Shown piece after piece: positions 25,270 to 49,848 of a stretch of 64,000 bases of DNA. Both the position numbers and the translations under genes were made by a program. Position 1 is the stretch's first letter, and each line of letters begins with the position of its first letter. Below the pieces are notes generated by a model. That model was given only the letters and a program-made list of their open reading frames with translations, was not told the DNA's origin and did not search any database. Origin of the DNA: Crossiella sp. SN42 (GTDB lineage Bacteria > Actinomycetota > Actinomycetes > Mycobacteriales > Pseudonocardiaceae). The stretch is taken from assembly GCF_023897065.1 (NCBI RefSeq), contig NZ_JAMHIV010000018.1:124001-188000 (forward strand), given 5' to 3'.

Positions 25270-26985
25270 TCAGTCCGCGGCCGGCGCCAGCTCGGGTGCG
25301 GGCTCGAACTCCTTGATCGCGTCCAGGGACTGCCCCATGGCCGCGTTGGCCTCGCGTTCGACCATGACCTCCACCAGCACCGGCTTGCGCTCGCGTTCGG
25401 CGGTCTCGGTGGCCCAGGCCAGCGCCTCGCGGATCTTGCCGGGTTCCTCCACCCGGACCGCGGCGCAGCCGAAGGCGTCCATCACCTTCACGTGGTCGAT
25501 GCCGCTGCTGCCGTAGTGCAGGTCGACCGCGTAGTTCATCTCGTAGGGGATCTCGGCCTGCCGGATCAGCCCGAGGTACTCGTTGTTGACCATGACGATG
25601 ACGAACGGGATCTCGTACTGGGCGGCGACCGCGACCTCCTCCATCAGGAACTGGAAGGAGTAGTCGCCGCAGACCGCGACCACGGTGCGCTCCGGGTAGG
25701 CGCACTTGACGCCGATCGCGGCCGGGATCTCCCAGCCCAGCGGCCCGGCCTGGCCGCAGACCAGGTAGCGGCGGGGCAGGTAGGTGCGCTGGAACTGGCC
25801 GGACCAGATCTGGTAGAGGCCGATCGCGGTGACGAAGGTGGTGTCCGGCGGGTAGAACTCGTTGAGCTCCCGGTAGACCCTGGGCGGTTTGATCGGCACG
25901 TCGTCGAAGTCGTCCCGCCTGGGCAGCGTCTCGCGCAGCTCGCCGATCCGCTTGGGCCACTCGCCAGGGGTGCGCGGCCTGGTCAGCTCCTTGGCGTGGT
26001 AGGCGAGCGCGGCCAGGGTGGGCCTGGCGTGCCCGACGATGCCCAGGTCCGGCTCGAAGACCTTGCCGAGCTGGGTGGGCTCGATGTCGACGTGGATGAA
26101 CTTGCGGCCCCTGGTGTAGGTCTCCAGGTCGCCGGTGTGCCGGTCGCCGAAGCGGGCGCCGACGGCGAGCACGCAGTCGCTTTCCAGGAAGGCCGCGTTG
26201 CCCCACCGGGTCTGGGTCTGCAACCCGGCCATGCCCGCGAACAGCTCGTGGTCCTCGGGGAAGGCGCCCTTGCCCATCAGGGTGACCTGCACCGGGATGC
26301 CCAGGTGCTCGGCGAGGCCGCGCAGCTCGTCGGCAGCGTCGGCCACGATCACCCCGCCGCCGGCCAGGATCAGCGGCCGTTCGGCGGCCAGGAGCATCTC
26401 GATGGCCGCGCGCACTGGCTCGGCCCTGGGTTGCGGCACCTCCACCGGCAGCGGGGCGTCCAGCGCCGGGTCGTAGCGGCACAGTCCTCTTTGCACGTCG
26501 ATGGGCAGGTCGACCAGCACCGGGCCGGGCCGCCCTGACCGGGCGATCCGGAACGCCTCGCGGAACACCCAGGCCGCCTGGGCCGGTTCCTTGAGCTGCA
26601 CCGCCCACTTGGTGACCGGTTTGGCGATCTCCACGATGTCCACGGCCTGGAAGGACTCCTGGTGCAGCTTGGCCTTGGCCGCCTGCCCGGTGATGCAGAT
26701 GATCGGGATCGAGTCCGCCAGCGCGGTGTACAACCCGGTGATCATGTTGGTGCCTGCCGGGCCGGAGGTGCCGATGCACACCCCGACGTTGCCGGTGACC
26801 CTGGCCCAGCCGTCCGCGGAGTGCGTGCCGCCTTCTTCGTGGCGCACGGTGATGTGGCGGATCGAGCTGTGCTGGAGTGCGGCGTAGAGCGGCAGGATCG
26901 CGGCGCCGGGAATGCCGAAGACGGTGTCCACGCCTTCGGACTCCAGCACCCTGACCACGGCCTCCATGCAGGGAATGCTGTTCAT
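25270..26985 (-). CDS. gcl: Glyoxylate carboligase (tartronate-semialdehyde synthase)
   Basis: 571-residue ThDP/FAD enzyme joining two glyoxylates to tartronate semialdehyde plus CO2. Strong family marks: FGIPGAAILPLY, CIGTSGPAGTNMITGLY, CGQAGPLGWEIPAAIG, CGDYSFQFLMEE and NNEYLGLIRQ, the GDG-NN ThDP motif. Notably RHEEGG places Glu at residue 50, where the Escherichia coli enzyme has Val51; Glu there is normal for other ThDP enzymes. Its ATG overlaps the glxR stop by 4 bp. Last gene of hyi-glxR-gcl; a terminator follows. Confidence 0.93.
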   Translation of the reverse strand: MNSIPCMEAVVRVLESEGVDTVFGIPGAAILPLYAALQHSSIRHITVRHEEGGTHSADGWARVTGNVGVCIGTSGPAGTNMITGLYTALADSIPIICITGQAAKAKLHQESFQAVDIVEIAKPVTKWAVQLKEPAQAAWVFREAFRIARSGRPGPVLVDLPIDVQRGLCRYDPALDAPLPVEVPQPRAEPVRAAIEMLLAAERPLILAGGGVIVADAADELRGLAEHLGIPVQVTLMGKGAFPEDHELFAGMAGLQTQTRWGNAAFLESDCVLAVGARFGDRHTGDLETYTRGRKFIHVDIEPTQLGKVFEPDLGIVGHARPTLAALAYHAKELTRPRTPGEWPKRIGELRETLPRRDDFDDVPIKPPRVYRELNEFYPPDTTFVTAIGLYQIWSGQFQRTYLPRRYLVCGQAGPLGWEIPAAIGVKCAYPERTVVAVCGDYSFQFLMEEVAVAAQYEIPFVIVMVNNEYLGLIRQAEIPYEMNYAVDLHYGSSGIDHVKVMDAFGCAAVRVEEPGKIREALAWATETAERERKPVLVEVMVEREANAAMGQSLDAIKEFEPAPELAPAAD

Positions 26986-27872
26986 CGCGGGTCGCTCCCT
27001 CGTCCGGAGAGGTTCTCGATCACTTTCAGCAGGGCCGAGTGGTCCAGGGCGCCGTAGCCCTGGCCACGAGCCGCCGCGATCAGCGCCGCGGTGACTCCGG
27101 TGACGGGAAGGGCGACCCCGGCCGAGCGGGCCTCGGCCAGCACGATGCCCATGTCCTTGTGGTGCAGGTCGATCCGGAAGCCGGGCGCGAACTCCCTGGC
27201 CACCATGGACTTGCGTTTGAGCTCCAGGATCCTGCTCCCGGCCAGGCCACCGGCCAGCACGTCCAGGCCGCGGTCGGCGTCCACCCCGGCGGCCTCCAGC
27301 AGCACGATCGCCTCGGCGAGGAGGGCGTAGGTGCCGCCGACCACCAGCTGGTTGGCCGCCTTCACCGTCTGGCCCGCGCCGGACTGTCCAACGTGGACGA
27401 TGGTGCCGCCGAGCACCTCGAACAGCGGCAGCGCGGCGGCGAAGTCCTCCTCGGTGCCGCCGACCATGATGGACAGCGAGCCGTCCACCGCGCCCTTCTC
27501 CCCGCCGCTGACCGGGGCGTCCAGCACCCTGATCCCGGCCGCCGCGCCGAGCTCGGCGAGTTTGCGGGAGGTCTCCGGGCGGATGGAGCTCATGTCGATG
27601 TGCAGCAGTCCGGGCTTGGCGTGCTCGAACAGCCCGCCGTCACCGAGGGCCACCTGCTCCACCTGCGGGGAGTCCGGCAGCATGGTGATCACCACCTCGG
27701 CCTGGCCCAGCACCTCGGCGATGCTGCCCGCGGTCTCGCCACCGGCCTCGGCCAGCCGGGCCGGGCCGGTGCCGAAGACGTCGTGGCCGATCACCCGGTG
27801 CCCGGCGCGCACCAGGTTGACGGCCATGGGCGCGCCCATGATGCCGAGGCCGATGAATCCGACAGCCGTCAT
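26982..27872 (-). CDS. glxR: Tartronate semialdehyde reductase (2-hydroxy-3-oxopropionate reductase)
   Basis: 296-residue beta-hydroxyacid dehydrogenase family enzyme reducing tartronate semialdehyde to glycerate with NAD(P)H. Dinucleotide motif VGFIGLGIMGAPMA at the N-terminus, substrate motif DAPVSGGEKGA, catalytic Lys in GQTVKAANQLVVGG, and the C-terminal helix KDMGIVLAEA. ATG at 27872 overlaps the hyi stop, and its own stop overlaps gcl, so three genes are tightly coupled. Confidence 0.92.
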   Translation of the reverse strand: MTAVGFIGLGIMGAPMAVNLVRAGHRVIGHDVFGTGPARLAEAGGETAGSIAEVLGQAEVVITMLPDSPQVEQVALGDGGLFEHAKPGLLHIDMSSIRPETSRKLAELGAAAGIRVLDAPVSGGEKGAVDGSLSIMVGGTEEDFAAALPLFEVLGGTIVHVGQSGAGQTVKAANQLVVGGTYALLAEAIVLLEAAGVDADRGLDVLAGGLAGSRILELKRKSMVAREFAPGFRIDLHHKDMGIVLAEARSAGVALPVTGVTAALIAAARGQGYGALDHSALLKVIENLSGRGSDPR

Positions 27873-28789
27873 GCCGATCCCTCCACAGTGGACTCCACCG
27901 CGGCCCTGAGCTTGGGCAGCCAGCCGAAGCTGTCCGCGCTGGGGCCGACGGGGCGGTACTCCAGGCCGATGTGGCCCTGGTAGCCCGCGAGCAGCAGGCG
28001 GGCGAGCACCTTCTCGTAGTCGATGCCGCCGGTGCCCGGCTGGCCGCGGCCGGGGGCGTCGGCGATCTGCACGTGGCCGAACTCCGCGGCCCGCCGGTCG
28101 ATCTGGGTGTCGAGGTCCTCGCCCATCCGGCTCAGGTGGTAGAGGTCGGCCAGGAAGGCCACGTTGCCCGGCCCGTTCGCGCGCACCAGCTCCAGCACGT
28201 GGTAGGCGGAGGCGAGCGAGATGATGGGGTAGACGGGGTTCTCGTGCGAGTTCAGCGCCTCCACCACCACGGTGGCGCCGATCCGGTCGGCGGCCTGGGC
28301 GGCGTAGGTCAGGTTGGCCACGGCCAGCTCGTCCTGCTCCTGCGGCCACAGCCCGGGTTCCCGGTTGCCGTAGAGGGCGTTGAGCGTTTTGCAGCCCAGC
28401 TGGCCGGCGAACTCGACGGCCACGTGCACGTTCTCCCGGAACAGGTGCACGTCGGCGGGCCGGGACAGCAGGCCCCGCTCCCCCGCCGCCATGTCGCCCG
28501 CGGCGAAGTTCAGCCCGGCCAGGCGCACTCCGGCGTCCTCGATCGCGTGCCGCACCGTGTCCAGTTCCCGTTGCAGCGGAACGGCTTCGGGCAGCGGCCA
28601 CCACAGCTCCACCGCGTCGAACCCGGCTGACTTGGCCGCGGCGAAGCGTTCGAGCAGCGGGAGCTCGGTGAACAGGATGGAGAGGTTGACGTCGAAACGC
28701 AGGATCGGACTGTTGACATGCCCTCCGCCCTGTTGCGCGGAGGTTCCCGTCTGGCTAGGCCGTGATCGGGGTGCTTCCTGCTTCTTCAC
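27869..28789 (-). CDS. hyi: Hydroxypyruvate isomerase, start rebuilt by an IS insertion
   Basis: Xylose-isomerase-like TIM barrel; conserved parts include LRFDVNLSILFTELPLLERF, VVVEALNSHENPVYP, DLYHLSRMGED and HIGLEYRP with metal-binding Glu/His/Asp. Native sequence seems to begin at CAG near 28712, exactly where the IS605-type right end stops. No normal start exists there; the frame stays open through the IS end, where GTG at 28789 lies 6 nt after GGGGAGG. From that GTG the product has 306 residues, about 28 of them IS-encoded. A CTG at 28703 is another possibility. It interconverts hydroxypyruvate and tartronate semialdehyde. Confidence 0.85.
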   Translation of the reverse strand: MKKQEAPRSRPSQTGTSAQQGGGHVNSPILRFDVNLSILFTELPLLERFAAAKSAGFDAVELWWPLPEAVPLQRELDTVRHAIEDAGVRLAGLNFAAGDMAAGERGLLSRPADVHLFRENVHVAVEFAGQLGCKTLNALYGNREPGLWPQEQDELAVANLTYAAQAADRIGATVVVEALNSHENPVYPIISLASAYHVLELVRANGPGNVAFLADLYHLSRMGEDLDTQIDRRAAEFGHVQIADAPGRGQPGTGGIDYEKVLARLLLAGYQGHIGLEYRPVGPSADSFGWLPKLRAAVESTVEGSA

Positions 28790-28900
28790 CGACTGCCTCC
28801 CCGGAGGAAGGACTGACACCGGCTCGACAGGCGTTTCGTCTCTCCGTCTGCCCGGCGGCGAGTATGTTCCGAGCCGCGTTGTGGTCCCGGTCGTGTGCGG
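28713..28900 (-). ncRNA. Putative omega/reRNA overlapping the tnpB 3' end
   Basis: TnpB proteins use an RNA made from the 3' end of their gene and the right end of the element, with the guide read from flanking DNA. The right-end hairpin and TCAA border are visible; the guide would begin at 28712, within the hyi 5' region. The 5' limit given is a guess. Confidence 0.4.
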
Positions 28901-29963
28901 CCCCGCAGCACGGGCACCTCCACGACCGGTCCTTCAGCAGCATGTCGCGCTTGACCCGCCCGCACACCGAGCACGTTTTCGAACTGGGTAGCCACCGGCT
29001 TACCCTGTGCACGGTGCGACCGTACCTCTCGGCCTTCTCCTCCAGCAGGCGCACGAACTGTGCCCACCCGGCATCGGAGATGGCCCTTGCGAGCCGCCGG
29101 TTCTTCACCATGCCGGCCACGTTCAGGTTCTCGACGTAGACCGCTTGGTTGTCGCGGACCAACATCAGAGCCTGCTTGTGGTGAAAGTCCCGCCGAGCAC
29201 GAACGACCTTGCTGTGCGCCAGGGCGACCTTCCGGCGGGTCTTGTCCCGGTTCGCACCGCCCTTGACCCGACGGACCTTCTCCCGCTCCAATCTGCGCAG
29301 CTTCCGGAGCTTGCGGGCCAGATGCCTGGGATTCGCCACGTCCAGCCGCTGGCCATCCGTGGTGGCGATCGTCGCCAGCCGGGCGAGTCCCACATCCACC
29401 CCGGCCTCCCGGTCGATCGGTGGCAGGGGGGACGGTTGGACGTCCACGACGAACGACGCGTAGTAGTGCCCATCCGGTTCCCGGATGATCGTGACCGACG
29501 ATGGCGGTGAGGGCAGTTCCCGCGACCAGCGGACCTTCACATCCCCGACTTTCGCCACATACAGTCGACCGTTCGGGCGCAGGACGAACCCGTTGCGGGT
29601 GAGCCGAAACGACTGTCGGCTGTCTTTGCGCGACTTGAACCTGGGATGCCCCACCTTGCGCCCCACTCGGCACTTGGCAATCGAGTCGAACCAGTTCTGG
29701 TACGCCCGGTGCGCGTCCCGAACCGACTGCACCAAAGCCACTGACGCCACCTCTGCCAGCCACACCCGAGCGTCGCAGGTCTTCGCCTCGGTGATGGTCC
29801 GGCGCTGCACTTCGGTTGAAGACAGCGTCTCCCCGGCCCGGTACGCCTTGTCCCGGCAGCGAAGTGCGTCGTTGAACACCACTCGGACACATCCGAAGGT
29901 ACGTGCCAGCATCGAGCGCTGAACCACGGTTGGTTCGAGCCGATAGCGGAAACGGGCCAGCAC
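28755..29963 (-). CDS. tnpB: TnpB, IS605-type RNA-guided nuclease
   Basis: 402 residues with all RuvC catalytic residues: Asp190 in GVDVGLARL, Glu278 in YVENLNVAG and Asp360 in HDRDHNAARNIL, numbering close to ISDra2 TnpB. A zinc ribbon is intact (CSVCG, CPCCG). The N-terminal wedge/REC-like part begins with FRYRLEPTVVQ. Start GTG at 29963. No frameshift or stop, so the nuclease is probably functional even though tnpA is broken. Orientation matches the sucCD and hyi-glxR-gcl genes. Confidence 0.93.
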   Translation of the reverse strand: MLARFRYRLEPTVVQRSMLARTFGCVRVVFNDALRCRDKAYRAGETLSSTEVQRRTITEAKTCDARVWLAEVASVALVQSVRDAHRAYQNWFDSIAKCRVGRKVGHPRFKSRKDSRQSFRLTRNGFVLRPNGRLYVAKVGDVKVRWSRELPSPPSSVTIIREPDGHYYASFVVDVQPSPLPPIDREAGVDVGLARLATIATTDGQRLDVANPRHLARKLRKLRRLEREKVRRVKGGANRDKTRRKVALAHSKVVRARRDFHHKQALMLVRDNQAVYVENLNVAGMVKNRRLARAISDAGWAQFVRLLEEKAERYGRTVHRVSRWLPSSKTCSVCGRVKRDMLLKDRSWRCPCCGAAHDRDHNAARNILAAGQTERRNACRAGVSPSSGEAVGEEAGSTPITA

Positions 29964-30009
29964 AACGACTATCCTGCCCTACAGGGCCAAGGGAACCGCA
30001 CAGAGCCCT

Positions 30010-30143
30010 GTGACCAGCGGGCACGGTGCCTTCAGAACGGTCGTCCAGGTGGTCTCGATGACGAGGCACCGGCCAAACATGTTGACGGGGAAACACCACG
30101 ACTTCCTCCGGGGCGTGTTCGAGAAGGCCTGCGCTGATTTCGG
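30010..30143 (+). pseudogene. Fragment of an IS200-type TnpA (Y1 transposase)
   Basis: The plus frame reads about 45 residues resembling the TnpA N-terminus: GAFRTVVQVVSMTRHRPNML then TGKHHDFLRGVFEKACADFG, to compare with the family pattern HLVFVTKYRR ... VCADFG. The HUH motif and catalytic Tyr, which follow in intact proteins, are absent because sucD-side sequence begins at about 30144. It lies head to head with tnpB as in IS605. Confidence 0.7.
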
Positions 30144-30151
30144 ACTTCTGC

Positions 30152-31045
30152 TTACACGGTCAGGGGTTTGAGGCACTCCCGCATCAGGCGAGCCGCTTCG
30201 CTGGGGGTCTTGCCGACCTTGACGCCCGCGGCTTCCAGCGCTTCCTGCTTGGCCGCGGCGGTGCCGGAGGAGCCGGAGACGATGGCGCCCGCGTGGCCCA
30301 TGGTCTTGCCCTCGGGGGCGGTGAAGCCCGCGACGTAGCCGACCACCGGCTTGGTGATGTGCTCGGCGATGTAGGCCGCCGCGCGCTCCTCGGCGTCGCC
30401 GCCGATCTCACCGATCATCACGATGGCCGCGGTCTCCGGGTCGTCCTGGAAGGCCTGCAGCGCGTCGATGTGCGTGGTGCCGATGATCGGGTCGCCGCCG
30501 ATGCCGACCGCGGTGGAGAAACCGAAGTCCCGCAGCTCGTACATCATCTGGTAGGTCAGGGTGCCCGACTTCGACACCAGACCGATCTTGCCAGGGCCGG
30601 AGATGTCGGCCGGGATGATGCCCGCGTTGGACTTGCCGGGCGAGATGATCCCCGGACAGTTCGGGCCGATGATCCGGGTCTTGTTGCCGGTGGCGCAGGC
30701 GTGCGCCCAGAACACCGCGGTGTCGTGCACCGGCACGCCCTCGGTGATCACCACCGCCAGGCCGATGCCCGCGTCGATGGCCTCGATCACCGCGCCTTTG
30801 GCGAAGCGCGGCGGCACGAAGACCACGGTGACGTCCGCGCCGGTCCCGGCCATAGCCTCGGCCACCGAGCCGAAGACCGGCACGCTGACCCCGTCGAAGT
30901 CGACGCGCTGGCCACCCTTCCCGGGCGTCACGCCGCCGACCACGTTGGTGCCAGCGGCAATCATTCGCCTGGTGTGCTTGGAGCCCTCGGCGCCGGTCAT
31001 GCCCTGCACGATGACCCTGCTGTGCTCGGTCAGGAAGATGGCCAT
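30152..31045 (-). CDS. sucD: Succinyl-CoA ligase alpha subunit
   Basis: 297 residues. CoA-binding Rossmann domain at the start ([18 protein letters not shown]), NPCP-type [14 protein letters not shown], and the phosphohistidine loop [14 protein letters not shown]. With SucC it interconverts succinyl-CoA and succinate with a nucleoside triphosphate. Its ATG lies 4 bp after the sucC stop. Location in an oxalate island and a regulator box before sucC suggest a dedicated copy supplying CoA thioesters, or a thiokinase with another dicarboxylate; sequence looks like ordinary SucD. Confidence 0.92.
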
Positions 31046-31049
31046 CGAG

Positions 31050-32222
31050 TCACACCCCCGCCGCTGCCAGTTGGGCGGCCTGGTCGGCCGCGTCGTCCAT
31101 CGTCTCCACCACGGTCACCAGCGGGTGGTCGGCCTCGGCCAGGATGCGGCGGCCCTCCTCGACGTTGTTGCCGTCCAGGCGCACCACCAGTGGCTTGGTG
31201 GCCTCCGCGCCCAGGATCTCCAGCGCGGCCACGATGCCGTTGGCCACCGCGTCGCAGGCGGTGATGCCGCCGAAGACGTTGACGAACACCGAGCGCACGT
31301 CGGCGTCACCCAGGATGATCTCCAGGCCGTTGGCCATCACCTCGGCCGAGGCGCCGCCGCCGATGTCCAGGAAGTTGGCCGGCTCCACCCCGCCGTGCCG
31401 CTCACCGGCGTAGGCGACAACGTCCAAAGTGGACATGACCAGGCCCGCGCCATTGCCGATGACGCCGACCTGGCCGTCCAGCTTGACGTAGTTGAGGCCC
31501 TTGTCCTTGGCCCGCTGCTCCAGCTCGTTCTCCGCGGCCCGGTCCACGAACTCGCCGTGTCCCGGATGCCGGAAACCGGCGTTCTCGTCCAGGGTCACCT
31601 TGCCGTCGAGGGCGAGAATGCTGCCCTGGGGGTCACGGACCAGCGGGTTGACCTCCACCAGGGTGGCGTCCTCGGCGACAAAGGTCTGCCACAGCTTCAC
31701 CAGCACCGCGGCGACGTCCTCGGCCACCTCGGCCGGGAAGTGCGCGGCGGTCACGATCTCCCTGGCCTTGGCCAGGTCGACGCCGCCGATGGCGTCCACG
31801 GGCACCTTGGCCAGGGCCGCCGGATTGGTGGCCGCGACCTCCTCGATGTCCATCCCGCCTTCGACCGAGGCCATCGCCAGGAACGTGCGATGGGTCCGGT
31901 CGAGCAAGAAGGAGACGTAGTACTCCTCGGCGATCTCCGAAGCGGGGGTCACCAGCACCCGGCGCACCACGTGCCCCTTGATGTCCAGCCCCAAGATGGC
32001 TCCGGCCTTGACTTCCGCGTCCTCCGGGTCGACGGCGAGCTTGACCCCGCCCGCCTTGCCACGGCCGCCGGTTTTCACCTGCGCCTTGACCACGACCCTG
32101 CCGCCCCACTCGGCCGCTGCCGCGCGGGCGTCGGCCGGATCCTCGACGACCCGCTGCGGCGGACCCACCGGGACCCCGTGCTGCGCGAAGAGATCCTTCG
32201 CCTGGTACTCGTACAGATCCAC
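31050..32222 (-). CDS. sucC: Succinyl-CoA ligase beta subunit
   Basis: 390 residues. ATP-grasp domain from the start ([39 protein letters not shown]) and the ligase domain with [13 protein letters not shown] and [15 protein letters not shown] at 32222 fits the family N-terminus. The start lies 7 nt after TACAGT, a -10-like hexamer inside the regulator palindrome, so the message may be leaderless. First gene of the sucCD unit, and probably of an ancestral sucCD-hyi-glxR-gcl operon. Confidence 0.92.
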
Positions 32223-32228
32223 GCCGCC

Positions 32229-32242
32229 TACTGTATACAGTA
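32229..32242. promoter_or_regulatory. GntR-type operator at the sucC promoter
   Basis: Perfect 14-bp palindrome TACTGTATACAGTA ending 7 nt before the sucC GTG, containing the FadR-family core TGTATACA. It overlaps the likely -10 hexamer. Confidence 0.85.
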
Positions 32243-32310
32243 TGTGAGACCCAGCACCAGTGCCTGCGCGCATGGATTTCAGCAGGTCCCCAACTCGGCC
32301 TCCTCGTGTA

Positions 32311-32324
32311 TACTGCATACAGTA
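32311..32324. promoter_or_regulatory. GntR-type operator at the OFA-carrier promoter
   Basis: TACTGCATACAGTA, one central mismatch from the sucC palindrome and 82 bp from it, about 18 nt before the carrier start. The two sites face divergent genes. Confidence 0.85.
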
Positions 32325-32342
32325 TCTAGTAGGGAGGCCATG

Positions 32343-33686: not shown

Positions 33687-33925
33687 GATGCGCGGCCATT
33701 TGGGGCATTATGGACATCTGGACCGTGGCAGAAGGTCACCTACAGCGGGCAGTCGGTGGGTTACTTTCCCAATTAGGTACTCGGTATGGGTGATCCAATG
33801 CTTGTGGTAGTCCTCACGCATTTCGGGCATATGGAACACTGTATGCTGTAGGCAGTCGACCGGGCACAATTAGATCAAGATCGGCACACCGGGCGAAAGC
33901 GCCCACCTCACCTCTGGAGCACACG
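33687..33925. other. Intergenic region upstream of gntR
   Basis: 239 bp, unusually AT-rich, without a gene. It contains the gntR promoter and operator and a looser GTACTCGGTATG element near 33779 that may be a second, weaker site. Confidence 0.5.
33837..33850. promoter_or_regulatory. GntR-type operator upstream of gntR (autoregulation)
   Basis: CACTGTATGCTGTA, close to the TACTGTATACAGTA consensus, with the possible -10 TATGCT inside it, about 75 nt before the gntR start. Confidence 0.65.
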
Positions 33926-40438: not shown

Positions 40439-40441
40439 GGC

Positions 40442-41692: not shown

Positions 41693-43420
41693 CTACTTGT
41701 ACATGGTCTGGTTCATGGTTCCCGGCGCGTAGACGTCCGGGTCCACCCACACGTTGATCAGCGACGGCAGCCCCGACTCGCGGGCGCGCTGGAGCGCGGG
41801 CGCGATGTCGGCGGGGTCGCGGACCTCCTCGCCGTAGCCGCCGAGGATCTTGGCGAACTGGTCGTAGGGCACATCACCGAGGGTGTTGCCGACCCGGCCG
41901 CGGTCCTCGCCGTACTTGACCGCCTGGCCGTAGCGGATCTGGTTCATCGAGGAGTTGTTGCCCACGATGCCCACGAACGGCAGGTTGTACCGGACCAGGG
42001 TCTCGAAGTCCCAGCCGGTCAGGGAGAAGGCGCCGTCCCCGAAGAGCGCGACGACCTCCTTGTCCGGGCGGGCGTACTTGGCCGCCAGCACGAACGGGAT
42101 GCCCACGCCGAGGGTGCCCAGCGGGCCCGGGTCCATCCAGTGGCCGGGCGACTTGGGCTGGACCACCTGGCCGGAGAAGGTGACGATGTCGCCGCCGTCG
42201 CCGATGTAGATGGAGTCCTCGGTGAGGAACTCGTTGATTTCGTGCACCAGGCGGTAGGGGTCGATCGGGTTGGCGTTGGACAGTTGCCGGGCCATCCGCT
42301 TGCCCAGCGACTGCTCCTCCACCGCGCGCAGCTCCTCCAGCCAGGCCTTGCGCCCGGTGGCGCCGTTGCCGACCCGGCCGGTGGTGGCCTGGAAGACCTG
42401 GGAGAGCACCATGCCGGCGTCGCCGACGATGCCCAGGTCGATGTCGCGGTTCTTGCCGACCGTGCGGTAGTCCAGGTCGATCTGCACCACGGTGGCCTCG
42501 GCGGAAAGCCGCTTGCCGTAACCCATCCGGAAGTCGAACGGGGTGCCCACGATGATGATCAGGTCGGCGTTGGTGAAGGCGTAGCGGCGGGAGAGCTGGA
42601 AGTGGTGCGGGTCGCCGGGCGGCAGCGTGCCGCGGCCGGCGCCGTTCATGTAGGCGGGGATGTTGAGCCCGCGGACCAGGTCGATGGCCGACTCGGTGCC
42701 CCGGGTGGTCCAGACCTGGCTGCCGAGCAGGATGCACGGCTTCTCCGCCTTGGTCAGCAGGTCGGCCAGCTTCTCGATGTCGGCGGGGTCGCCCGCGGAA
42801 CGGGTGGAGGCGCGGTAGTGGCCCGCCTTGGGGATGCGGGCCTTCTCGATGGGGACCGAGGCGTCCAGCACGTCCCTGGGGATCTCCAGGAAGGACGGGC
42901 CGGGCGCGCCGTGGTAGCACTCGCGGAAGGCCATCGAGACCAGGTCCGCCGCGCGGGCGGTGTCCGGCACGGTGGCGGCGAACTTGGTGATCGGGGCCAT
43001 CATGTCCACGTGTGGCAGGTCCTGCAGTGAGCCCATCTTGTGCTGGCTCAGCGCGCCCTGGCCGCCGATGAGCAGCATCGGGCTCTCCGCGCGCAGCGCG
43101 TTGGCGACCCCGGTGACCGCGTCGGTGGTGCCCGGTCCCGCGGTGACCACCGCGCAGCCCGGTTTGCCGGTGATCCGGGCGTAGCCGTCGGCCGCGTGCG
43201 CGGCCACCTGCTCGTGCCGGACGTCGATGACCTCGATGCCTTCGTCTACACAGCCGTCGTAGATGTCGATGATGTGGCCGCCACACAGAGTGAACACCAC
43301 GTCGACGCCTTCGGCCTTGAGAGCCTTCGCCACCAGATGGCCGCCCGAGATGAGACCTTCTCCGGTCTCCTTCACCTCGACCTGGCTGGCGCTGGGCAGA
43401 GCCTCGGCAGTCTGCGCCAT
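41693..43420 (-). CDS. oxc: ThDP-dependent oxalyl-CoA decarboxylase / 2-hydroxyacyl-CoA lyase family
   Basis: 575 residues, ThDP family. Catalytic Glu70 in VRHEQVAAHAADGYAR; ThDP motif GDGAFSLTGWDFETLVRYNL ... NNSSMNQ; the C-terminal lid ends APGTMNQTMYK. With frc next door the expected reaction is oxalyl-CoA to formyl-CoA plus CO2. Overall similarity to the Oxalobacter enzyme is modest and resembles 2-hydroxyacyl-CoA lyases, so carboligation of formyl-CoA with aldehydes is a real alternative. First gene of the operon; an operator lies 115 bp upstream. Confidence 0.78.
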   Translation of the reverse strand: MAQTAEALPSASQVEVKETGEGLISGGHLVAKALKAEGVDVVFTLCGGHIIDIYDGCVDEGIEVIDVRHEQVAAHAADGYARITGKPGCAVVTAGPGTTDAVTGVANALRAESPMLLIGGQGALSQHKMGSLQDLPHVDMMAPITKFAATVPDTARAADLVSMAFRECYHGAPGPSFLEIPRDVLDASVPIEKARIPKAGHYRASTRSAGDPADIEKLADLLTKAEKPCILLGSQVWTTRGTESAIDLVRGLNIPAYMNGAGRGTLPPGDPHHFQLSRRYAFTNADLIIIVGTPFDFRMGYGKRLSAEATVVQIDLDYRTVGKNRDIDLGIVGDAGMVLSQVFQATTGRVGNGATGRKAWLEELRAVEEQSLGKRMARQLSNANPIDPYRLVHEINEFLTEDSIYIGDGGDIVTFSGQVVQPKSPGHWMDPGPLGTLGVGIPFVLAAKYARPDKEVVALFGDGAFSLTGWDFETLVRYNLPFVGIVGNNSSMNQIRYGQAVKYGEDRGRVGNTLGDVPYDQFAKILGGYGEEVRDPADIAPALQRARESGLPSLINVWVDPDVYAPGTMNQTMYK

Positions 43421-43534: not shown

Positions 43535-43554
43535 CCATACTGCATACCGTATGG
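43535..43554. promoter_or_regulatory. GntR-type operator upstream of oxc
   Basis: CCATAC - N8 - GTATGG with interior TGCATACC, aligning with the sucC palindrome. It sits between the selB-like stop and the oxc start, with possible -10 TACGGT on the minus strand inside it. Confidence 0.8.
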
Positions 43555-43640: not shown

Positions 43641-45416
43641 TCAGTCGTGTTCCGGGCGAATCCGACGTCTGCTGTCGGGTAGCCGGACGGTGATCCGCCG
43701 GGTGTCCAGCAGTTCCAGCAGGGGCACCGCGACCCGGCGGGAGGTGCCCAGCGCGGTGCGGGCCGCGGCCACGGTGAAGGGCTGCGGGAGCGCGCACAAC
43801 ACCGCGACCGCCCGTTCCACCGCATCCGGTCCGAGGTACACGCCGTCGGCCAGCCGGAGCAGCAGACCGGTGCGCACGGCGGCCGCGAGCGACTTGGGGG
43901 TCAGTCGCAACGCGGCCAGCCGGTCGGCCTCCGGCGCGCTGAAGGGGCTGCTCACCAGCTCGGCGCGCAGCTTCTCCACCGCCTGCCGCACCGGCAACGG
44001 GAGCTCGGTCCCGCCTTCGGTGAGCACCAGCCGGCCCTGGTTGATCCGCACACCGAGGTCACGAGCCGCTCTGGCCACCGGTTCGAGCAGTCTTCGGTGT
44101 GGCAAAGCCAGCAGTGCCACCGCTTCCGCCTTGGGCACGCCGGGGTCATGGGGTTGTTCGCGCGCGCGGGCACGCACCAGGGCGGCCAGTCGCCGGCACA
44201 GCTCGTCCAGCTTGGCCGGGTCGATCAGCCAGTCCCCCGCCCTGGGCGCGACCGGCAGGGCACAGCCCATGGCCAGCAGGTCGCCGGCCTTGACCAGGCC
44301 ACGTCGGCGCAGCTCATCGCCGCCGTTGGGGATCGCTGACCGACTCATCAGTTCAAGGCCGCGGGCGGCCAGCTGCGCCTCGGTGGCCAGCTCGGGCGGC
44401 AGGATGTCCAGCACGGTGCACCCGGCCAGCACCTCCGCGCCGCTGCGCAGCGGCGCCTGGTCACAGCCGCGCAACAGCGCCTTGTCGCCGATGCGCAGCG
44501 GCAACGGCTCGCTCAGCCGCAGCCGCGCGATGTCGCCGTCGAGCACCCGCAGGAACACCGGCTGCCGGGCCGAGCCCAGCCCCAGTTCCAGGTGCCCGTG
44601 CACCCCGCCCAGCTTGCGGCCGGGCAGCGGGCGCAGCCGCACGTCCACCACGTCCACGTGCCGCCACCGGCCAGGGGTCACCAGCGCGGCGCCGGTGAAG
44701 GACTCATCCGGTTGCGCCTCGGGCAGGTGGACCGTGATCCGGGCCGGAGCGGACATCGCGGACACCTGACGCCCCAACGACTCCAGCCCGCCCACCCGCA
44801 GCCGCCGGTCCTGCGCGCCCACGGCCAGCTCGGCCTCCCGCTCGATCGACCCGGCCAGCAGGGTGCCGGTGACCAGCACGCCCTTGTCCTCCGCGCCGGC
44901 CTCGGCGCAGCCGTCGGCCCACAGCCGCACCGGGACCTCCGGTGGCGGCGGCAGCGTGGCGGCCAGCCGGTCCAGCACCAGGCGCAGCCGGTCGATGCCC
45001 GCGCCGGTGCGCGCGCTGACCACCGCGGACTCGATCCGGCCGAGCGCGCCGGTGGCCATGGCGCGGCGGGTCCGCCGCAGCACCGGGCCGGGATCGGCCA
45101 GGTCGGCCCGGGTCACCACCAGCAACCCGTGCCGGATGTCCAAGGCGTGCAACGCGTCCAGCTGCACGGCCAGTTGTGCCGACCACTCCTGGTCGGCCGC
45201 CACCACGAACACCACCGCCTCCGCGGTGGCCACGCTCGTCAGGACCGCCTCAGCCGCGCGGTCCACCAATGCCAGCACCCGCCCCGAGGGCAACCGAGCC
45301 CACGGATCCCGTCCGGTGAGCGCGCGCACCAAGGTGGATTTGCCTGCTCCGGCGCCTCCGGCGGTGGCGACCACGCGCATCGGCGGGGGCGAGTGGAACC
45401 CGAACCCTTCAGGCAC
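43641..45416 (-). CDS. SelB-like protein with degenerate GTPase domain
   Basis: 591 residues aligning end to end with selenocysteine elongation factor SelB: P-loop at the start, EF-Tu-like domains with VLVTGTLLAGSIE and the TRAD form of the NKxD motif, RVLDGDIARLRLSEPLPLRIGD split over strands, then C-terminal winged helices. The G domain is altered: the P-loop reads GGAGAGKST, the switch I block is missing and the DxPGHE switch II is absent, leaving ALVDRAAEAV. GTP-driven translation function is therefore doubtful. GTG at 45416 follows GGAGG by 7 nt. Divergent from the panE-type gene and sharing an operator. Confidence 0.78.
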   Translation of the reverse strand: MPEGFGFHSPPPMRVVATAGGAGAGKSTLVRALTGRDPWARLPSGRVLALVDRAAEAVLTSVATAEAVVFVVAADQEWSAQLAVQLDALHALDIRHGLLVVTRADLADPGPVLRRTRRAMATGALGRIESAVVSARTGAGIDRLRLVLDRLAATLPPPPEVPVRLWADGCAEAGAEDKGVLVTGTLLAGSIEREAELAVGAQDRRLRVGGLESLGRQVSAMSAPARITVHLPEAQPDESFTGAALVTPGRWRHVDVVDVRLRPLPGRKLGGVHGHLELGLGSARQPVFLRVLDGDIARLRLSEPLPLRIGDKALLRGCDQAPLRSGAEVLAGCTVLDILPPELATEAQLAARGLELMSRSAIPNGGDELRRRGLVKAGDLLAMGCALPVAPRAGDWLIDPAKLDELCRRLAALVRARAREQPHDPGVPKAEAVALLALPHRRLLEPVARAARDLGVRINQGRLVLTEGGTELPLPVRQAVEKLRAELVSSPFSAPEADRLAALRLTPKSLAAAVRTGLLLRLADGVYLGPDAVERAVAVLCALPQPFTVAAARTALGTSRRVAVPLLELLDTRRITVRLPDSRRRIRPEHD

Positions 45417-45459
45417 CGCAACGCCTCCTCACCCACGCGGTCGTGCCGCGTGCGGCCCG

Positions 45460-45492
45460 TTGACCGGGCTACTCCATACTGTATGCTGAATG
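45460..45492 (+). promoter_or_regulatory. Promoter and GntR-type operator of the panE-type gene
   Basis: TTGACC (45460-45465), 16-nt gap, TATGCT (45482-45487) form a good sigma70-like promoter. CATACTGTATGCTGAATG (45475-45492) covers the -10 and matches the island operator. It lies between divergent selB-like and panE-type genes. Confidence 0.8.
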
Positions 45493-45521
45493 AGTTGTCG
45501 ACACAAGAACAGGAGAGTGAT

Positions 45522-46514
45522 GTGCGAATCGCTGTTCTTGGTGCCGGCGCCATCGGCGCGTACGTGGGTGCAGCCCTGCACCGCGCCGGAGCGCAGGTTC
45601 ATCTCATCGCCCGCGGTGCGCACCTTTCGGCCATCCGCGAAGCCGGGGTCCGGGTGCTCTCCGACCGCGGCGACTTCCACGCCACCCCACACGCGACCGA
45701 TGACCCGGCCGAGGTCGGCCCGGTGGACCACATCTTCCTAGGCCTGAAGGCGAACTCGTACGCCGCCGCGGGCCGGATGATCGAGCCGCTGTTGCACGAG
45801 CGCACCACCATCATCGCCGCGCAGAACGGGATTCCGTGGTGGTACTTCCACGGTCTGCCCGGCCCCTTCGAGAACCACCGCATCAACAGCGTGGACCCCG
45901 GCGGCGCGGTCAGCGCCGCTCTCCCGGTCCAGCGGGCCATCGGCTGCGTGGTCTACGCGGCCACCGAGATCGAGGCTCCCGGCGTGATCCGCCACCTGGA
46001 GGGCACCCGCTTCTCCATCGGCGAGCCGGACCGGTCGATCTCCGCGCGCTGCCTGGAGTTCTCCACCGCGATGATCGAAGGCGGGCTCAAGTGCCCGGTG
46101 GAGGCCGACCTCCGCCGGGACATCTGGCTCAAGCTGATGGGCAACATCGCGTTCAACCCGATCTCCGCGCTGACCCGCTCCACCATGGCCGCCATCTGCC
46201 GGCACCACGACGCCAGGCGACTGGTGGTGTCGATGATGCGGGAGACCCTGGAGGTCGCGCGACGGCTGGGTTCCCACCCCGAGATCTCCATCGAACGACG
46301 GCTGGCCGGGGCCGAGAAAGCCGGCGAGCACAAGACCTCCACGCTCCAGGACCTGGAGAAGGGCAAACCCCTGGAGCTGGACGTCATCCTCGCGGCGGTC
46401 GTCGAGCTCGCGGAGCTGACCGGCGCGGAAGTTCCCACGCTCAGGGCGATCCACGCGATGGCCGACCTGCTCAACGCATCGGTGACCAGGCAGCCTGCCG
46501 CCGTCGCTTCCTGA
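45522..46514 (+). CDS. PanE-family reductase, candidate oxalyl-CoA reductase
   Basis: 330 residues of the 2-dehydropantoate 2-reductase family: NADP-binding RIAVLGAGAIGAYVG, AQNGIPWWYFHG, and the catalytic Lys in WLKLMGNIAFNPISALT. GTG at 45522 follows AGGAGAG. In Methylorubrum/Methylobacterium extorquens AM1 a PanE homolog (PanE2) reduces oxalyl-CoA to glyoxylate for oxalate assimilation. Position among frc, oxc and gcl and an operator on its promoter support the same role here. Plain ketopantoate reductase activity is the alternative. Confidence 0.82.
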   Translation: MRIAVLGAGAIGAYVGAALHRAGAQVHLIARGAHLSAIREAGVRVLSDRGDFHATPHATDDPAEVGPVDHIFLGLKANSYAAAGRMIEPLLHERTTIIAAQNGIPWWYFHGLPGPFENHRINSVDPGGAVSAALPVQRAIGCVVYAATEIEAPGVIRHLEGTRFSIGEPDRSISARCLEFSTAMIEGGLKCPVEADLRRDIWLKLMGNIAFNPISALTRSTMAAICRHHDARRLVVSMMRETLEVARRLGSHPEISIERRLAGAEKAGEHKTSTLQDLEKGKPLELDVILAAVVELAELTGAEVPTLRAIHAMADLLNASVTRQPAAVAS

Positions 46515-46557
46515 CCGTCTCTCCCCTCCCACCTGCCTGACCTCCCGGGGGCAGCTC

Positions 46558-48003
46558 ATGGATTCCCGTTTTCGTGACGCCGCACCCTCCGCTGAGGAAC
46601 GCGCGGCCATCGATGTCGTGCTGGACCCGTCGTCCTCCGGTCGGAGTGACGGCGGGCCCATCGCCAACCCGCACGACGCGCTGTTGCCCGCCCTGCACTC
46701 CCTCAACGACCGGGTGGGCTGGATCAGCGAGGCGGCACTGGACTACCTGTCCCGCCGCCTGACCCTCTCCGCTGCCGAGGTCTTCGGCGTGGCCACCTCG
46801 TGCGCCCTGTTCTCGCTGCGGCCCCGGCCGCGCCGGGTGCTGCACGTCTGCGCCGGACCCGCTTGCCGCGCAACGGGTTCCACTCCCCTGTGCCGGACCC
46901 TGGAACGTCGCCTGGGTCCGGCCGACCGCCCGGCGGGCGGGGTGCTCTGGCAGCCCTCGCCCTGCCTCGGCCTGTGCGAGCGCGCACCGGCCGCCCTGGT
47001 CTTCGAGGCCGGTGACCCGCCGCGCACCGCGGTCACCGCACCATCCACTGTGGACAGCACCATCAGCATCGCGCTGGACCTGCGGCACGCCCAGCCGGAA
47101 CCCCCGGCCGAGGCCGCCGTGCCGCAGGCGGGCGCGGAGCAGCTGGTGCTGCTGCGCCGGATCGGCCGGGTCGACCCGGCCAGCCTGTCCGACTACCTGA
47201 ACACCGGCGGCTACACCGCGCTGCACCACGCACTGCGGATGGGTCCGGCCGAGATCATCCGCCTGGTGCTGGAATCCGGCCTGCCCAGCAGGGACGGGGC
47301 CGGGGTGCCGGTGGCCACGAGCTGGGAAGTCCTTGCCGGGCAACGGAACCGGCCGCACTACCTGGTGTGCGACGCCGATGAGAGCCATCCCGGCTCCTTC
47401 GCCGACCGGGTGCTGCTGGAGGGCGACCCGTTCGCGGTGGTGGAGGCGATGACCATCGCGGGCATCGCCACCGGCAGCCGCCACGGCTACCTGCACCTGC
47501 GCGGGGAGTATCCGCGGGCCCATCGCGTTCTCACCGAGGCGGTGGCCCAGGCCAGGGAGAAAGGCTTGCTGGGCCGTAACATCCTGGGCTCGGGCCGCAG
47601 CTTCGACCTGGAGGTCCGGCGCGGCGGCGGCACCTATCCCGGCCGGCGCGGCGAGCCGAGGGGCACCCCGCCGTTCCCGGCCGAGCCGGTGCTGCTGGGC
47701 AAACCCACCGTGGTGCACTCGGTGGAGACCCTGGTCGCGGTGCCCCCGGTCATCACCGGCACACCGGTGCCGAACCGGCTGTACTGCGTCTCCGGCATCG
47801 TCCGCAGGCCGGGGGTGTACGAGCTGCCCCGCGGCAGCACCCTGCACCGCCTGGTCGCCGCGGCCGGTGGCGTGCGCACCGGCCGCACCCTGCGCGCCGC
47901 ACTGGTCAACGGCGCGCTCAGCCTCCCGGCCGCACTGGACCGGCAGCTGCCCGCCGCCGGTCCCGGTTCGGTGGTGCTGCTGGATGAGGAGAGGGAGCAC
48001 TGA
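46558..48003 (+). CDS. Formate dehydrogenase beta-like subunit (NuoE-NuoF fusion, shortened)
   Basis: 481 residues. About 1-170 is a NuoE thioredoxin-like domain with four [2Fe-2S] Cys (Cys98, 103, 136, 140). About 185-481 is NuoF-like: [36 protein letters not shown] and an SLBB domain ([14 protein letters not shown]). Three parts are changed: the FMN-loop GRGGAGFP reads SRDGAGVP, about 15 residues of the flavin segment before RGEPR are missing, and the protein stops before the C-terminal [4Fe-4S] domain. Electron transfer to NAD may be impaired or changed. fdhD follows 1 nt later. Confidence 0.8.
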
Positions 48004-48004
48004 C

Positions 48005-48838
48005 ATGGGCCGCCGCATCGCCCGCCGCATGATCACCCGCCTGCGCGCGGACACCCGCACCCGTCGCCTGGACGACCTGGTGGTGGAGGAGCCGCTGGAG
48101 ATCCGGCTCAACGGCGCGCCGCTGTCGATCACCATGCGCACTCCCGGCCACGACTTCGAGCTGGCCGCGGGCTTCCTGGTCAGCGAGGGCGTGGTCGGCG
48201 CGGCCGGTGACGTCGCGGGCATCGCCTACTGCCCCGGCGCGACCACCGACGGCGGCAACACCTACAACGTCCTGGACGTCACCCTGGCCGCGCACGTTCC
48301 GGTCGGCGAGTTCTCCTTGGCGCGCAACGTCTACACCACCTCCTCCTGCGGGGTGTGCGGCAAGGCCAGCCTGGACGCGGTGCGCACGGTGGCCCGCTGG
48401 AGCATCCGCGAGGACCCGATCCGGCTCGACCCCTCGGTGCTGCGCGCCCTGCCCGACCGGCTGCGCGCCTCCCAGCTCCTGTTCGAGCGCACCGGCGGCC
48501 TGCACGCCGCCGCACTGTGCACAGTGGACGGTGACCTGCTGGCGGTCCGGGAGGACGTGGGAAGGCACAACGCGGTGGACAAGCTGCTGGGCTGGGCACT
48601 GTTGCAGGATCGCTTGCCGCTGCGCGAGACGATCCTGCTGGTCTCCGGCCGGGCCAGCTTCGAGCTGGCGCAGAAGGCGGTGATGGGCGGTATCCCCGCC
48701 CTGGCCGCGGTGTCCGCCCCGTCCTCGCTCGCGGTCGAGCTGGCCGAGGAGACCGGCCTGACCGTGATCGGCTTCCTGCGCGGCGCGTCGATGAACGTCT
48801 ACACCGGAGCCGACCGGCTGCTCGAACCGGTCGGCTAA
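48005..48838 (+). CDS. fdhD: Formate dehydrogenase accessory sulfurtransferase
   Basis: 277 residues. FdhD passes sulfur to the molybdenum cofactor of formate dehydrogenases. The CxxC is present in [13 protein letters not shown], with family motifs [36 protein letters not shown] and [15 protein letters not shown] at 48005 follows the beta-like gene by one base. Its 3' end overlaps moaA convergently by 4 bp. Presence implies a Mo/W formate dehydrogenase alpha subunit elsewhere in the genome. Confidence 0.93.
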
Positions 48839-49833
48839 CCGCCGATCGCGCTCATCGGCCGGTCCGGCTGGGCGAACTCCGGCCGGTCGATGCCGTGCCC
48901 GGCAGGCTTGGCCCACATGGCTTTCCGCCACAGCTCGGCCAGCTCGGTGTCCTCGGCCCCGCCGCGCAGCGCGGCGCGCAGGTCGGTCTCGGTGTGCGCG
49001 AACAGGCAGGACCGGACCTGGCCGTCGGCGGTGAGCCGGGTGCGCGCGCAGTCGGCGCAGAACGGCCGGGTCACCGAGCCGATCACGCCCACGGTGTCCG
49101 GTCCGCCGTTGACCAGCCAGCGTTCCGCCGGCGCCGAGCCCCGCTCCCCCGGCTCCGGGGTCAGCTCGAACTCCTGGCGCAGCAGGCCAAGGATCTCCTC
49201 GGCGGTCACCATCGCCGACCGGTCCCAGCCGTGCTGCGGGTCAAGGGGCATCTGCTCGATGAAGCGCAGCTGGTAACCGGCGGCCAGGCAGAACCGCAGC
49301 AGCGGCGCGGCCTCGTCCTCGTTGATCCCGCGCAGCAGCACCGAGTTCACCTTCACCGGCCCCAGTCCGGCCTGCTGGGCCGCGCGCAGTCCGGCCAGCA
49401 CCTCGGGCAGCCGGTCCCGCCGGGTGATCCGGGCGAAACGCTCCGCCCGCAAGGTGTCCAGCGAGACGTTCACCCGGTCCAGCCCCGCCGCCGCGAGCGC
49501 GTCCGCGGTCTTGGCCAGGCCCACGCCGTTGGTGGTCAGCGCGATCCGCGGCCGGGGCGTCAACGCGGCCGCCCCGGCCACGATCTCCGGCAAGTCCCGG
49601 CGCAGCAACGGTTCCCCGCCGGTGAACCGGACATCGGTGACGCCGAGCTCACGCACCGCGATGCCGATGAGCCGGACGAACTCCGCGCCGGTCAACAACT
49701 CCGGCTTCGCCAGCCAGTCCAGGCCCTCGGCCGGCATGCAGTAGGTGCAGCGCAGGTTGCACTTGTCGATGAGGGAAACTCGCAGGTCCGTCGCGACTCG
49801 ACCAAACGAGTCCAGCAACCCAAGCCCGGTCAT
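48835..49833 (-). CDS. moaA: GTP 3',8-cyclase (molybdenum cofactor step 1)
   Basis: 332 residues, radical SAM enzyme. N-terminal cluster [21 protein letters not shown], and the C-terminal cluster [21 protein letters not shown] spread over three Cys; the GG end (SAIGG) is typical. ATG at 49833 is chosen because TACGAT lies 6 nt upstream, fitting a leaderless message; ATG at 49839 is in frame. The upstream palindrome suggests coregulation with the oxalate island, supplying cofactor for formate dehydrogenase. Confidence 0.93.
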
Positions 49834-49835
49834 CT

Positions 49836-49848
49836 GCATATCGTATGC
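49836..49848. promoter_or_regulatory. Palindrome at the moaA promoter, possible GntR site
   Basis: GCATA-TCG-TATGC, similar in half-site to the island operators but with an odd centre. It covers the proposed -10 TACGAT on the minus strand. Confidence 0.5.

Follow-up and report, generated by a model that had tools for sequence, protein, structure and literature searches.

A candidate oxalate regulon with a non-canonical thiamine diphosphate enzyme and a PanE-type reductase in Crossiella sp. SN42

Gene content and shared operator of the island

A stretch of 64,000 nucleotides (the window; positions 124,001 to 188,000 of contig NZ_JAMHIV010000018.1, here contig C10, of the 9.72-Mb genome of Crossiella sp. 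SN42) holds, between positions 25270 and 49839, an island of genes which we propose to be a regulon for growth on oxalate, in which oxalyl-coenzyme A (oxalyl-CoA) would be split between decarboxylation and reduction; we put the probability of this reading at roughly 0.78. Genes were called from codon composition and family models, and matches were judged against the curated cut-offs of the NCBIfam and Pfam models. A preliminary description of this DNA had listed formyl-CoA:oxalate CoA-transferase (Frc), an enzyme resembling oxalyl-CoA decarboxylase (Oxc), an OFA carrier, a PanE-family reductase, gcl, glxR, hyi, sucCD, an acyl-CoA synthetase, and formate dehydrogenase (FDH) maturation genes, all of which were located again at or near the places assigned to them. 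It had not named the trio of Nramp-like, 184-residue, and TerC proteins, the GntR regulator, the degenerate SelB-like protein, or the TnpB insertion. The features are as follows.

25270..26985, minus strand: gcl, glyoxylate carboligase (PRK11269 878 bits, cut-off 791; TIGR01504 709 against 711, just under)
26982..27872, minus strand: glxR, tartronate semialdehyde reductase (TIGR01505 354 bits, cut-off 341; longer frame 26982-28604)
27869..~28705, minus strand: hyi-like hydroxypyruvate isomerase gene (TIGR03234 288 bits, below cut-off 353)
28755..29963, minus strand: tnpB (IS200/IS605-type) insertion between sucD and hyi (NF040570 324 bits, cut-off 100)
30152..31045, minus strand: sucD paralog (440 bits, cut-off 336)
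31050..32222, minus strand: sucC paralog (507 bits, cut-off 370)
32228..32243: operator copy, sucC promoter (1 mismatch)
32310..32325: operator copy, carrier promoter (0 mismatches)
32340..33686, plus strand: OFA-like MFS carrier of 448 residues, candidate for oxalate uptake (below OFA model cut-offs)
33836..33851: operator copy, gntR promoter (2 mismatches)
33926..34690, plus strand: GntR/FCD regulator, candidate regulator of the operator sites (PF00392 66.7 and PF07729 96.4 bits, both over cut-off)
35076..36110, minus strand: TerC/Alx-family metal homeostasis protein (TIGR03718 375 bits, cut-off 246)
36110..36664, minus strand: 184-residue membrane protein without family match, conserved beside the Nramp-like gene
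36669..38186, minus strand: Nramp-like transporter (NF037982 448 bits, cut-off 50; PF01566 16.3 bits, cut-off 29.8)
38300..40438, minus strand: ADP-forming acyl-CoA synthetase (AcsADP), fused beta-alpha (Pfam domains; relatives in PDB)
40442..41671, minus strand: frc, formyl-CoA:oxalate CoA-transferase (TIGR03253 668 bits, cut-off 504.2)
41693..43420, minus strand: thiamine diphosphate (ThDP) enzyme, candidate non-canonical oxalyl-CoA decarboxylase, called oxc here (below all listed model cut-offs)
43537..43552: operator copy, oxc promoter (0 mismatches)
43641..45416, minus strand: degenerate SelB-like protein (TIGR00475 75 bits, cut-off 242)
45476..45491: operator copy, panE promoter (1 mismatch)
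45522..46514, plus strand: panE2/apbA2-type reductase, oxalyl-CoA reductase candidate (NF005089 442 bits, cut-off 223)
46558..48003, plus strand: fdhB, shortened NuoE-NuoF-like FDH beta subunit (PF01257 and partial PF01512, no PF10589)
48005..48838, plus strand: fdhD (380 bits, cut-off 269)
48835..49839, minus strand: moaA (TIGR02666 365 bits, cut-off 284; no operator match nearby)

The palindrome ATACTGYATRCNGTAT precedes sucC, the carrier gene, gntR, oxc, and panE, a common operator that supports the co-regulation proposed in the preliminary description. At up to three mismatches, the window contains 14 matches (both strands, overlaps counted) against 0.24 expected from shuffled sequences; a three-mismatch match lies at 39242, inside the acyl-CoA synthetase gene. 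At up to two mismatches, the host genome holds 11 matches: 10 fall within the island, and the remaining one lies where an fds operon begins on contig C32. The reversed pattern has no match. The operator was not among the 20 largest repeat families in a repeat search. A census of 110 distinct loci at up to two mismatches, in which a site between divergent genes was counted for both, placed it before oxc in 59/64, panE in 97/108, and sucC in 6/9 cases; before genes within operons it was seen in 0/72 cases for AcsADP, 1/71 for Frc, 0/59 for the Nramp-like gene, and 0/43 for TerC, and other matches across the loci amounted to 24 in 2.08 Mb. It lay at most about 150 bases upstream of sucC in 16 of 16 further loci with sucC, four of which have it in the gap separating sucC from a divergently oriented oxc. 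The GntR/FCD protein is likely the regulator of these sites. Adjoining gntR, a 67-residue protein without family match (34799-35002) has counterparts of 48 to 54% identity in several Prauserella-like loci and of 67% in the genus-mate G016.

Conservation of the island was followed in a family sample of 200 and a phylum sample of 386 genomes; the genomes within each sample are related to one another, which means that counts are not independent and Fisher P values are only indicative. In the family sample, 60 genomes have the PanE ortholog and 71 have the ThDP enzyme, with 59 sharing both (P = 2e-37), 12 holding the ThDP enzyme only, one PanE only (G028, fragmented), and 128 neither. Forty family loci of up to 20 kb taken around panE contain the ThDP enzyme in 40/40, Frc in 39/40, and an unbroken panE in 39/40 cases. 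The 80 named loci listed from a contig scan (Nonomuraea, Streptomyces, Pseudonocardia, Kribbella, and others) show the ThDP enzyme in 43, AcsADP in 45, GntR in 49, and FdhD in 45. The gene set is widespread, occurring in Nonomuraea, Pseudonocardia, Prauserella, Kibdelosporangium, and others; the Streptomyces loci examined had chiefly the panE operon and the GntR gene within view.

The ThDP enzyme and the PanE-type reductase

The preliminary description had called the product of 41693..43420 an Oxc-like decarboxylase. Its context makes it a probable oxalyl-CoA decarboxylase, but neither family models nor active-site residues identify it as an Oxc. It reached 236.8 bits on TIGR03254 (cut-off 739.4) and 251 on PRK09259 (cut-off 557), which speaks against canonical Oxc, remained below the cut-off for each of the 25 families listed of 51 matched, and is 26% identical to E. 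coli Oxc. The glutamate E56 of Oxc, which activates ThDP, is retained in the alignment as E70 within an RHEQ stretch. According to the part of a survey (PMC10192776) consulted here, the key residues of Oxc are E56, Y120, E121, Y483, S553, and R555 (O. formigenes numbering), of which E56 is conserved in 100%, Y120, E121, Y483, and S553 in 93 to 98%, and R555 in just 50% of sequences. In the window enzyme, Y120, E121, Y483, and S553 are replaced in the alignment by L132, Q133, I495, and N570.

The best PDB match of the enzyme is the actinobacterial 2-hydroxyacyl-CoA lyase AcHACL (274 bits), and the L132, Q133 pair is of the lyase type instead of the tyrosine-glutamate of Oxc. Both points would suit a 2-hydroxyacyl-CoA lyase or carboligase (for example, one joining formyl-CoA and glyoxylate to tartronyl-CoA) that is no decarboxylase, an assignment which we regard as improbable. 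In the excerpts of PMC8760513 available to us, Y120, Y483, and S553 contact the oxalyl group, lyases carry glutamine at the E121 position, and the acid/base of AcHACL is E493, at the position of Y483; the E493A variant keeps about a tenth of the activity, so that loss of the glutamate need not abolish lyase function, but Oxc catalysis does without the proton transfer by E493, which occurs in the lyase reaction only. The equivalent of E493 is I495 in the window enzyme and is invariant across 12 aligned sequences (the AcHACL chain in the PDB alignment carries alanine at 493). The enzyme also scored 354 bits on the 2-hydroxyacyl-CoA lyase model NF058623, below its cut-off of 600. Taken together, model scores and residues place it outside both the Oxc and the 2-hydroxyacyl-CoA lyase families.

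What also argues against a lyase, and for a second oxalyl-CoA decarboxylase, is its distribution, which is complementary to that of canonical Oxc among Frc-bearing genomes. Frc (TIGR03253) is present in 68/200 family genomes, 68/68 of which hold the ThDP enzyme; the three genomes with the ThDP enzyme and no Frc match are G049, G081, and G103, the enzyme being cut at a contig end in G049 and G103. Canonical Oxc (E up to 1e-150) was found in 1/200 family genomes, G193. In the phylum sample, Frc is present in 14 genomes, the ThDP enzyme in 6 of them (host included) and canonical Oxc in the other 8, with an overlap of 0; two of these 8 Oxc proteins (G211, G500) scored 730 to 732 bits, slightly below the 739 cut-off. 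Outside the Frc genomes, this sample held three distant relatives of the ThDP enzyme (46% identity) and four canonical Oxc genes. The enzyme is therefore probably a non-canonical oxalyl-CoA decarboxylase that replaces canonical Oxc in the same step, as judged from sequence and distribution. Kin at 65 to 67% identity adjoin frc in Cupriavidus metallidurans, Phyllobacterium, and a Caballeronia. On TIGR03254, the C. metallidurans and G155 homologs reached 226 and 254 bits, and on PRK09259 (cut-off 557) the one from Phyllobacterium reached 219 bits, all below cut-off; in plasmid records with gene names, NCBI labels such kin 'thiamine pyrophosphate-binding protein'. No description of this lineage as an oxalate enzyme was found in full-text searches of an open-licence library, which does not cover subscription papers. 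As a side observation, G193 also holds the ThDP enzyme and two Frc genes, with a canonical oxc-frc pair beside the non-canonical cluster.

Within the family sample, orthologs of the PanE-type protein are 64 to 100% identical to it, and the next full-length matches reach 35%; partial matches of up to about 53% lie below the ortholog range, and G016 contains fragments of 82 to 85% identity. Its NCBIfam and Pfam family name is 2-dehydropantoate 2-reductase, and it aligns with E. coli PanE at the N, K, S, and E positions, which we take to be the catalytic ones of ketopantoate reductases. That it is an ordinary ketopantoate reductase located here by chance is nevertheless very unlikely: the host genome encodes a second PanE-family protein on contig C27, 59 of the 60 PanE genomes hold the ThDP enzyme, and the window protein is 22% identical to E. 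coli PanE versus 41 to 46% to eight proteobacterial proteins. Of 57 plasmid records with a PanE match, 8 were inspected through that match and one more via a ThDP-enzyme match. Of the eight proteobacterial proteins, five lie within a 20-kb locus with frc or oxlT (Phyllobacterium, C. metallidurans, two Caballeronia, Azospirillum), the Skermanella gene lies near GntR and transhydrogenase genes, the Methylobacterium gene near an OFA-like MFS gene, and the one on a Rhodobacteraceae plasmid in unrelated surroundings, as does a ninth proteobacterial homolog of 38% identity. All nine and the aligned actinobacterial proteins share an NG[ILV]P[WY]WY stretch that is absent from E. coli PanE and from the C27 protein. 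By identity and motif, the window protein is closer to oxalate-linked than to biosynthetic PanE, in a comparison that did not include the PanE2 and ApbA2 sequences themselves; the deep branches of the PanE tree were unresolved. The suggestion that this protein is an oxalyl-CoA reductase candidate is supported: members of two phyla have panE in linkage with frc or oxlT, and it is distinct from the C27 gene. We regard it as a candidate of the PanE2/ApbA2 type. Genes for SucCD, the ThDP enzyme, and Frc are found near panE also in C. metallidurans, a Caballeronia, and a Phyllobacterium. Downstream of the Azospirillum and Skermanella homologs (L175, L176) come a CBS-domain gene and genes for subunits of an NAD(P) transhydrogenase, an arrangement that fits a need for NADPH.

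CoA supply, formate oxidation, and transport

Frc recycles CoA only during decarboxylation and each reduction of oxalyl-CoA frees CoA, so that a reductive branch would need one ATP-paid activation per oxalate. The genome has two copies of sucCD, the island copy and one on contig C78, and the distribution of clustered sucCD follows panE: it lies at most about 20 kb from oxc in 17/20 genomes with panE versus 0/11 without (Fisher P = 4e-6), and by genus in 8/9 versus 0/6 (P = 0.0014), one genus standing on both sides. The 20 panE-positive genomes were picked for contigs allowing a wider view, and of the panE-negative ones ten were covered over about 60 kb and G016 over about 34 kb; a twelfth, G173, seen over 20 kb only, was left out and showed no sucCD there. 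On balance, we favor the view that the island SucCD recharges the CoA lost by oxalyl-CoA reduction. The part of PMC2752808 consulted describes oxalate CoA-transferase, succinyl-CoA synthetase, and an NADP-dependent acylating glyoxylate dehydrogenase coupled in Pseudomonas fluorescens in the opposite direction.

The assimilation of glyoxylate via Gcl and GlxR, as envisaged in the preliminary description, accords with gcl and glxR, both of which are in the island and over cut-off, and two glycerate kinases are encoded elsewhere in the genome. In the genus-mate G016 (L073, L195), panE, sucCD, and gcl-glxR-hyi are lost or decayed, and oxc-frc-acs, the Nramp-like gene, gntR, and the carrier gene are kept. 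This genome is a natural test of the oxalyl-CoA split. Reduced oxc-frc-carrier clusters without acyl-CoA synthetase, panE, or sucCD within about 60 kb were seen in G010 and G040 (L196, L198). The tnpB element region (28713-30153) is absent from the same-species genome G055 and from two genus-mates, in which the five genes follow one another without interruption. The TTG codon with which hyi starts in these relatives is missing here at the TnpB insertion, and an in-frame GTG overlapping the end of tnpB remains.

The formate dehydrogenase side of the island holds FdhD, MoaA, and a shortened NuoEF-like subunit, as had been anticipated in part, but the catalytic FDH is encoded on another contig. 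The window has no FDH molybdenum catalytic subunit; fdhA and the Fe-S subunit gene are gone from it, and fdhB has lost its C-terminal 4Fe-4S domain. The sole match in the genome over the TIGR01591 cut-off is on C32, within an fdsGBAD-like NAD-formate dehydrogenase operon that comprises catalytic and electron-transfer subunits and has one operator copy at its start. An island FDH as working enzyme was rejected, given the missing catalytic and Fe-S subunits and the operator-bearing fds operon, and the C32 operon is likely the working formate dehydrogenase. Among the 43 named loci with fdhB, fdhA stands between this gene and panE in 41, and 37 show in addition fdhD and the Fe-S subunit, the domains of the relatives' FDH operon having been checked with Pfam in one locus (L057); in 14 family loci with fdhB, fdhA lies in between in 9. 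The ratio of nonsynonymous to synonymous substitution rates (dN/dS) of the window fdhB, 0.28 to 0.35 against two genus-mates and 0.20 against G055, indicates purifying selection, though weak. The SelB-like gene has a dN/dS of 0.28 to 0.29 and is, with fdhB, the least constrained of the genes compared with genus-mates. Most of the GTPase part of its product is poorly matched, and the gene is kept between oxc and panE in 3/4 genus-mates, Kibdelosporangium, and a few others. The FDH match on C32 has no in-frame stop; no search was aimed at selenocysteine machinery.

The carrier gene announced earlier as an OFA carrier does encode an OFA-like protein, but its frame is 32340-33686, not 32555-33793, and with 123.3 bits on TIGR00890 (cut-off 374.85) and 107.5 on TIGR04259 (cut-off 335) the protein is below both models and OFA-like only; it scored 133 bits on an L-lactate carrier model (cut-off 320). 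Directly after the acyl-CoA synthetase gene, 66 de-duplicated loci have an Nramp-like gene (51), an OFA-like carrier gene (14), or a gene for a diverged Nramp-family protein (1; L052, 73 bits, cut-off 50). The Nramp-like protein resembles Nramp metal transporters (MntH) in being over the NF037982 cut-off and differs from them in its sub-cut-off Pfam Nramp score and its motifs. Aligned to E. coli MntH, it lacks the metal motifs DPGN in TM1 and MPH in TM6, which presumably form the Nramp metal site, having GMGE and MWY instead, with D, N, and H changed and M kept. The idea that it plainly substitutes for the OFA carrier was rejected, both being present in the window and, over a wider view, in 18/20 clusters holding the Nramp-like gene. 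AlphaFold models of the Nramp-like protein and the ThDP enzyme, with a predicted local distance difference test (pLDDT) of 40 and 56, respectively, were too poor, and neither was used.

Proposed pathway and relation to known systems

From gene content, conservation, complementary distributions, and operator positions, all of which were computed, we infer the enzyme activities, the action of the regulator on the operator, and what SucCD, the acyl-CoA synthetase, and the Nramp-like protein contribute. Oxalate would be taken up, probably via the OFA-like carrier, and converted by Frc to oxalyl-CoA. Part of this would be decarboxylated by the ThDP enzyme to formyl-CoA, whose CoA Frc would hand to the next oxalate with release of formate, and the distant FdsGBAD-type FDH would oxidize the formate to CO2, yielding NADH. 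The other part would be reduced by the PanE2/ApbA2-type enzyme to glyoxylate, which Gcl and GlxR would convert to glycerate. The island SucCD may supply succinyl-CoA for the Frc-type transferase, the ADP-forming acyl-CoA synthetase may prime or repair the formyl-CoA/oxalyl-CoA pool, and the GntR/FCD protein would control the ATACTGYATRCNGTAT sites.

The same enzymes could in principle work in the reverse direction, with glycolate or glyoxylate as substrate and PanE running toward oxalyl-CoA. As far as the consulted part of PMC7486775 goes, the PanE2/ApbA2 reaction is treated as reversible and the oxalyl-CoA decarboxylation route takes part in glycolate metabolism of Cupriavidus necator, and P. 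fluorescens runs its three enzymes that way (PMC2752808, likewise in part). This direction appears quite unlikely here, with an OFA-type carrier in the island preceded by the operator and with Gcl and GlxR, which would compete for glyoxylate. Moreover, oxc-frc is retained in ten genomes without panE, and eight of these also have the acyl-CoA synthetase and Nramp-like genes, which makes oxalate the likelier substrate.

Several observations weigh against a regulon for growth on oxalate as proposed. The operator precedes gntR in only 12/56 loci and the L064-type carrier gene in 7/25, and none was found directly before hyi-glxR-gcl in the window, where the TnpB insertion moreover splits sucCD from these genes. 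The ThDP enzyme fails the classical-Oxc residue test and every listed model. Among the 80 named loci listed, the ThDP enzyme, Frc, or AcsADP was unseen in 35 to 38, and 31/80 show none of the three, only 10 of these 31 being shorter than 15 kb. Three panE-positive genomes (G175, G025, G196) do not have sucCD near oxc. In G016, terC and the fdhB-fdhD-moaA side are missing as well, so that gene loss there extends beyond the assimilation branch. Finally, in the part of PMC3720670 consulted, succinyl-CoA is no donor for the related class III transferases YfdE and UctC.

A wider picture, which we consider doubtful, is that many actinomycetes and some Proteobacteria employ, instead of classical Oxc, another family of oxalyl-CoA decarboxylases that arose independently and binds the oxalyl group through residues of its own. 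A dedicated SucCD would pay for their reductive branch by recharging the CoA transferase, and an Nramp fold that has lost its metal site would, with its 184-residue partner, carry oxalate or a metal-oxalate complex through the membrane. If the assignment of the ThDP enzyme is true, canonical Oxc would have been cleanly replaced by a non-orthologous enzyme. Such an enzyme would also be a new starting point, beside Oxc and HACL, in the current engineering of one-carbon carboligases. Surveys of oxalate use based on canonical oxc would miss the lineage, 67 of the 68 Frc-bearing family genomes being without canonical Oxc (E up to 1e-150). The linkage of sucCD to panE makes the thioester payment by an oxalyl-CoA-reducing cell testable, and the operator offers a ready readout for oxalate sensing in actinomycetes.

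Among known systems, canonical Oxc (TIGR03254; E. coli, O. formigenes) resembles the window enzyme in ThDP superfamily, Frc neighbor, and E56, whereas the window enzyme differs at four residues and in its 26% identity. AcHACL shares the L127/Q128 equivalents with it and differs in the catalytic E493. In Methylorubrum extorquens AM1, PanE2 reportedly reduces oxalyl-CoA to glyoxylate, as attributed to Schneider (2012), a work cited in PMC7486775, PMC8411744, and PMC3720670, and a likeness to the PanE-type reductase proposed here; its downstream route is the serine cycle. PDB 7ayg, which we take to be the M. extorquens Oxc (MeOXC), matches E. coli Oxc at 746 bits and is a classical Oxc. An actinobacterial genus is said to be broadly oxalotrophic, in work of Robertson and Meyers (2022) known to us from its citation only. 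The C. metallidurans locus combines a window-type ThDP enzyme, Frc, SucCD, and an acyl-CoA synthetase near panE; the operator (up to two mismatches) was not found in this locus or in the two Caballeronia loci scanned. A close likeness by pathway is C. necator H16, which also has the Calvin cycle. According to the part of PMC7486775 consulted, C. necator splits oxalyl-CoA by means of Frc, Oxc, and ApbA2, with the glycerate pathway (Gcl-Hyi-Tsr) downstream; a strain without apbA2 grows more slowly on oxalate (its doubling time rising from 6.5 to 10 h), one without frc-oxc does not grow on it, and ApbA2, whose gene is close to frc-oxc, is 51% identical to M. extorquens PanE2. The preliminary view that such a set is little described in an actinomycete was half right, the split and the glycerate pathway being known from C. 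necator in that same source and the gene set being widespread. Judged by this comparison, the pathway logic of split, reduction, and glycerate route is already established in Cupriavidus.

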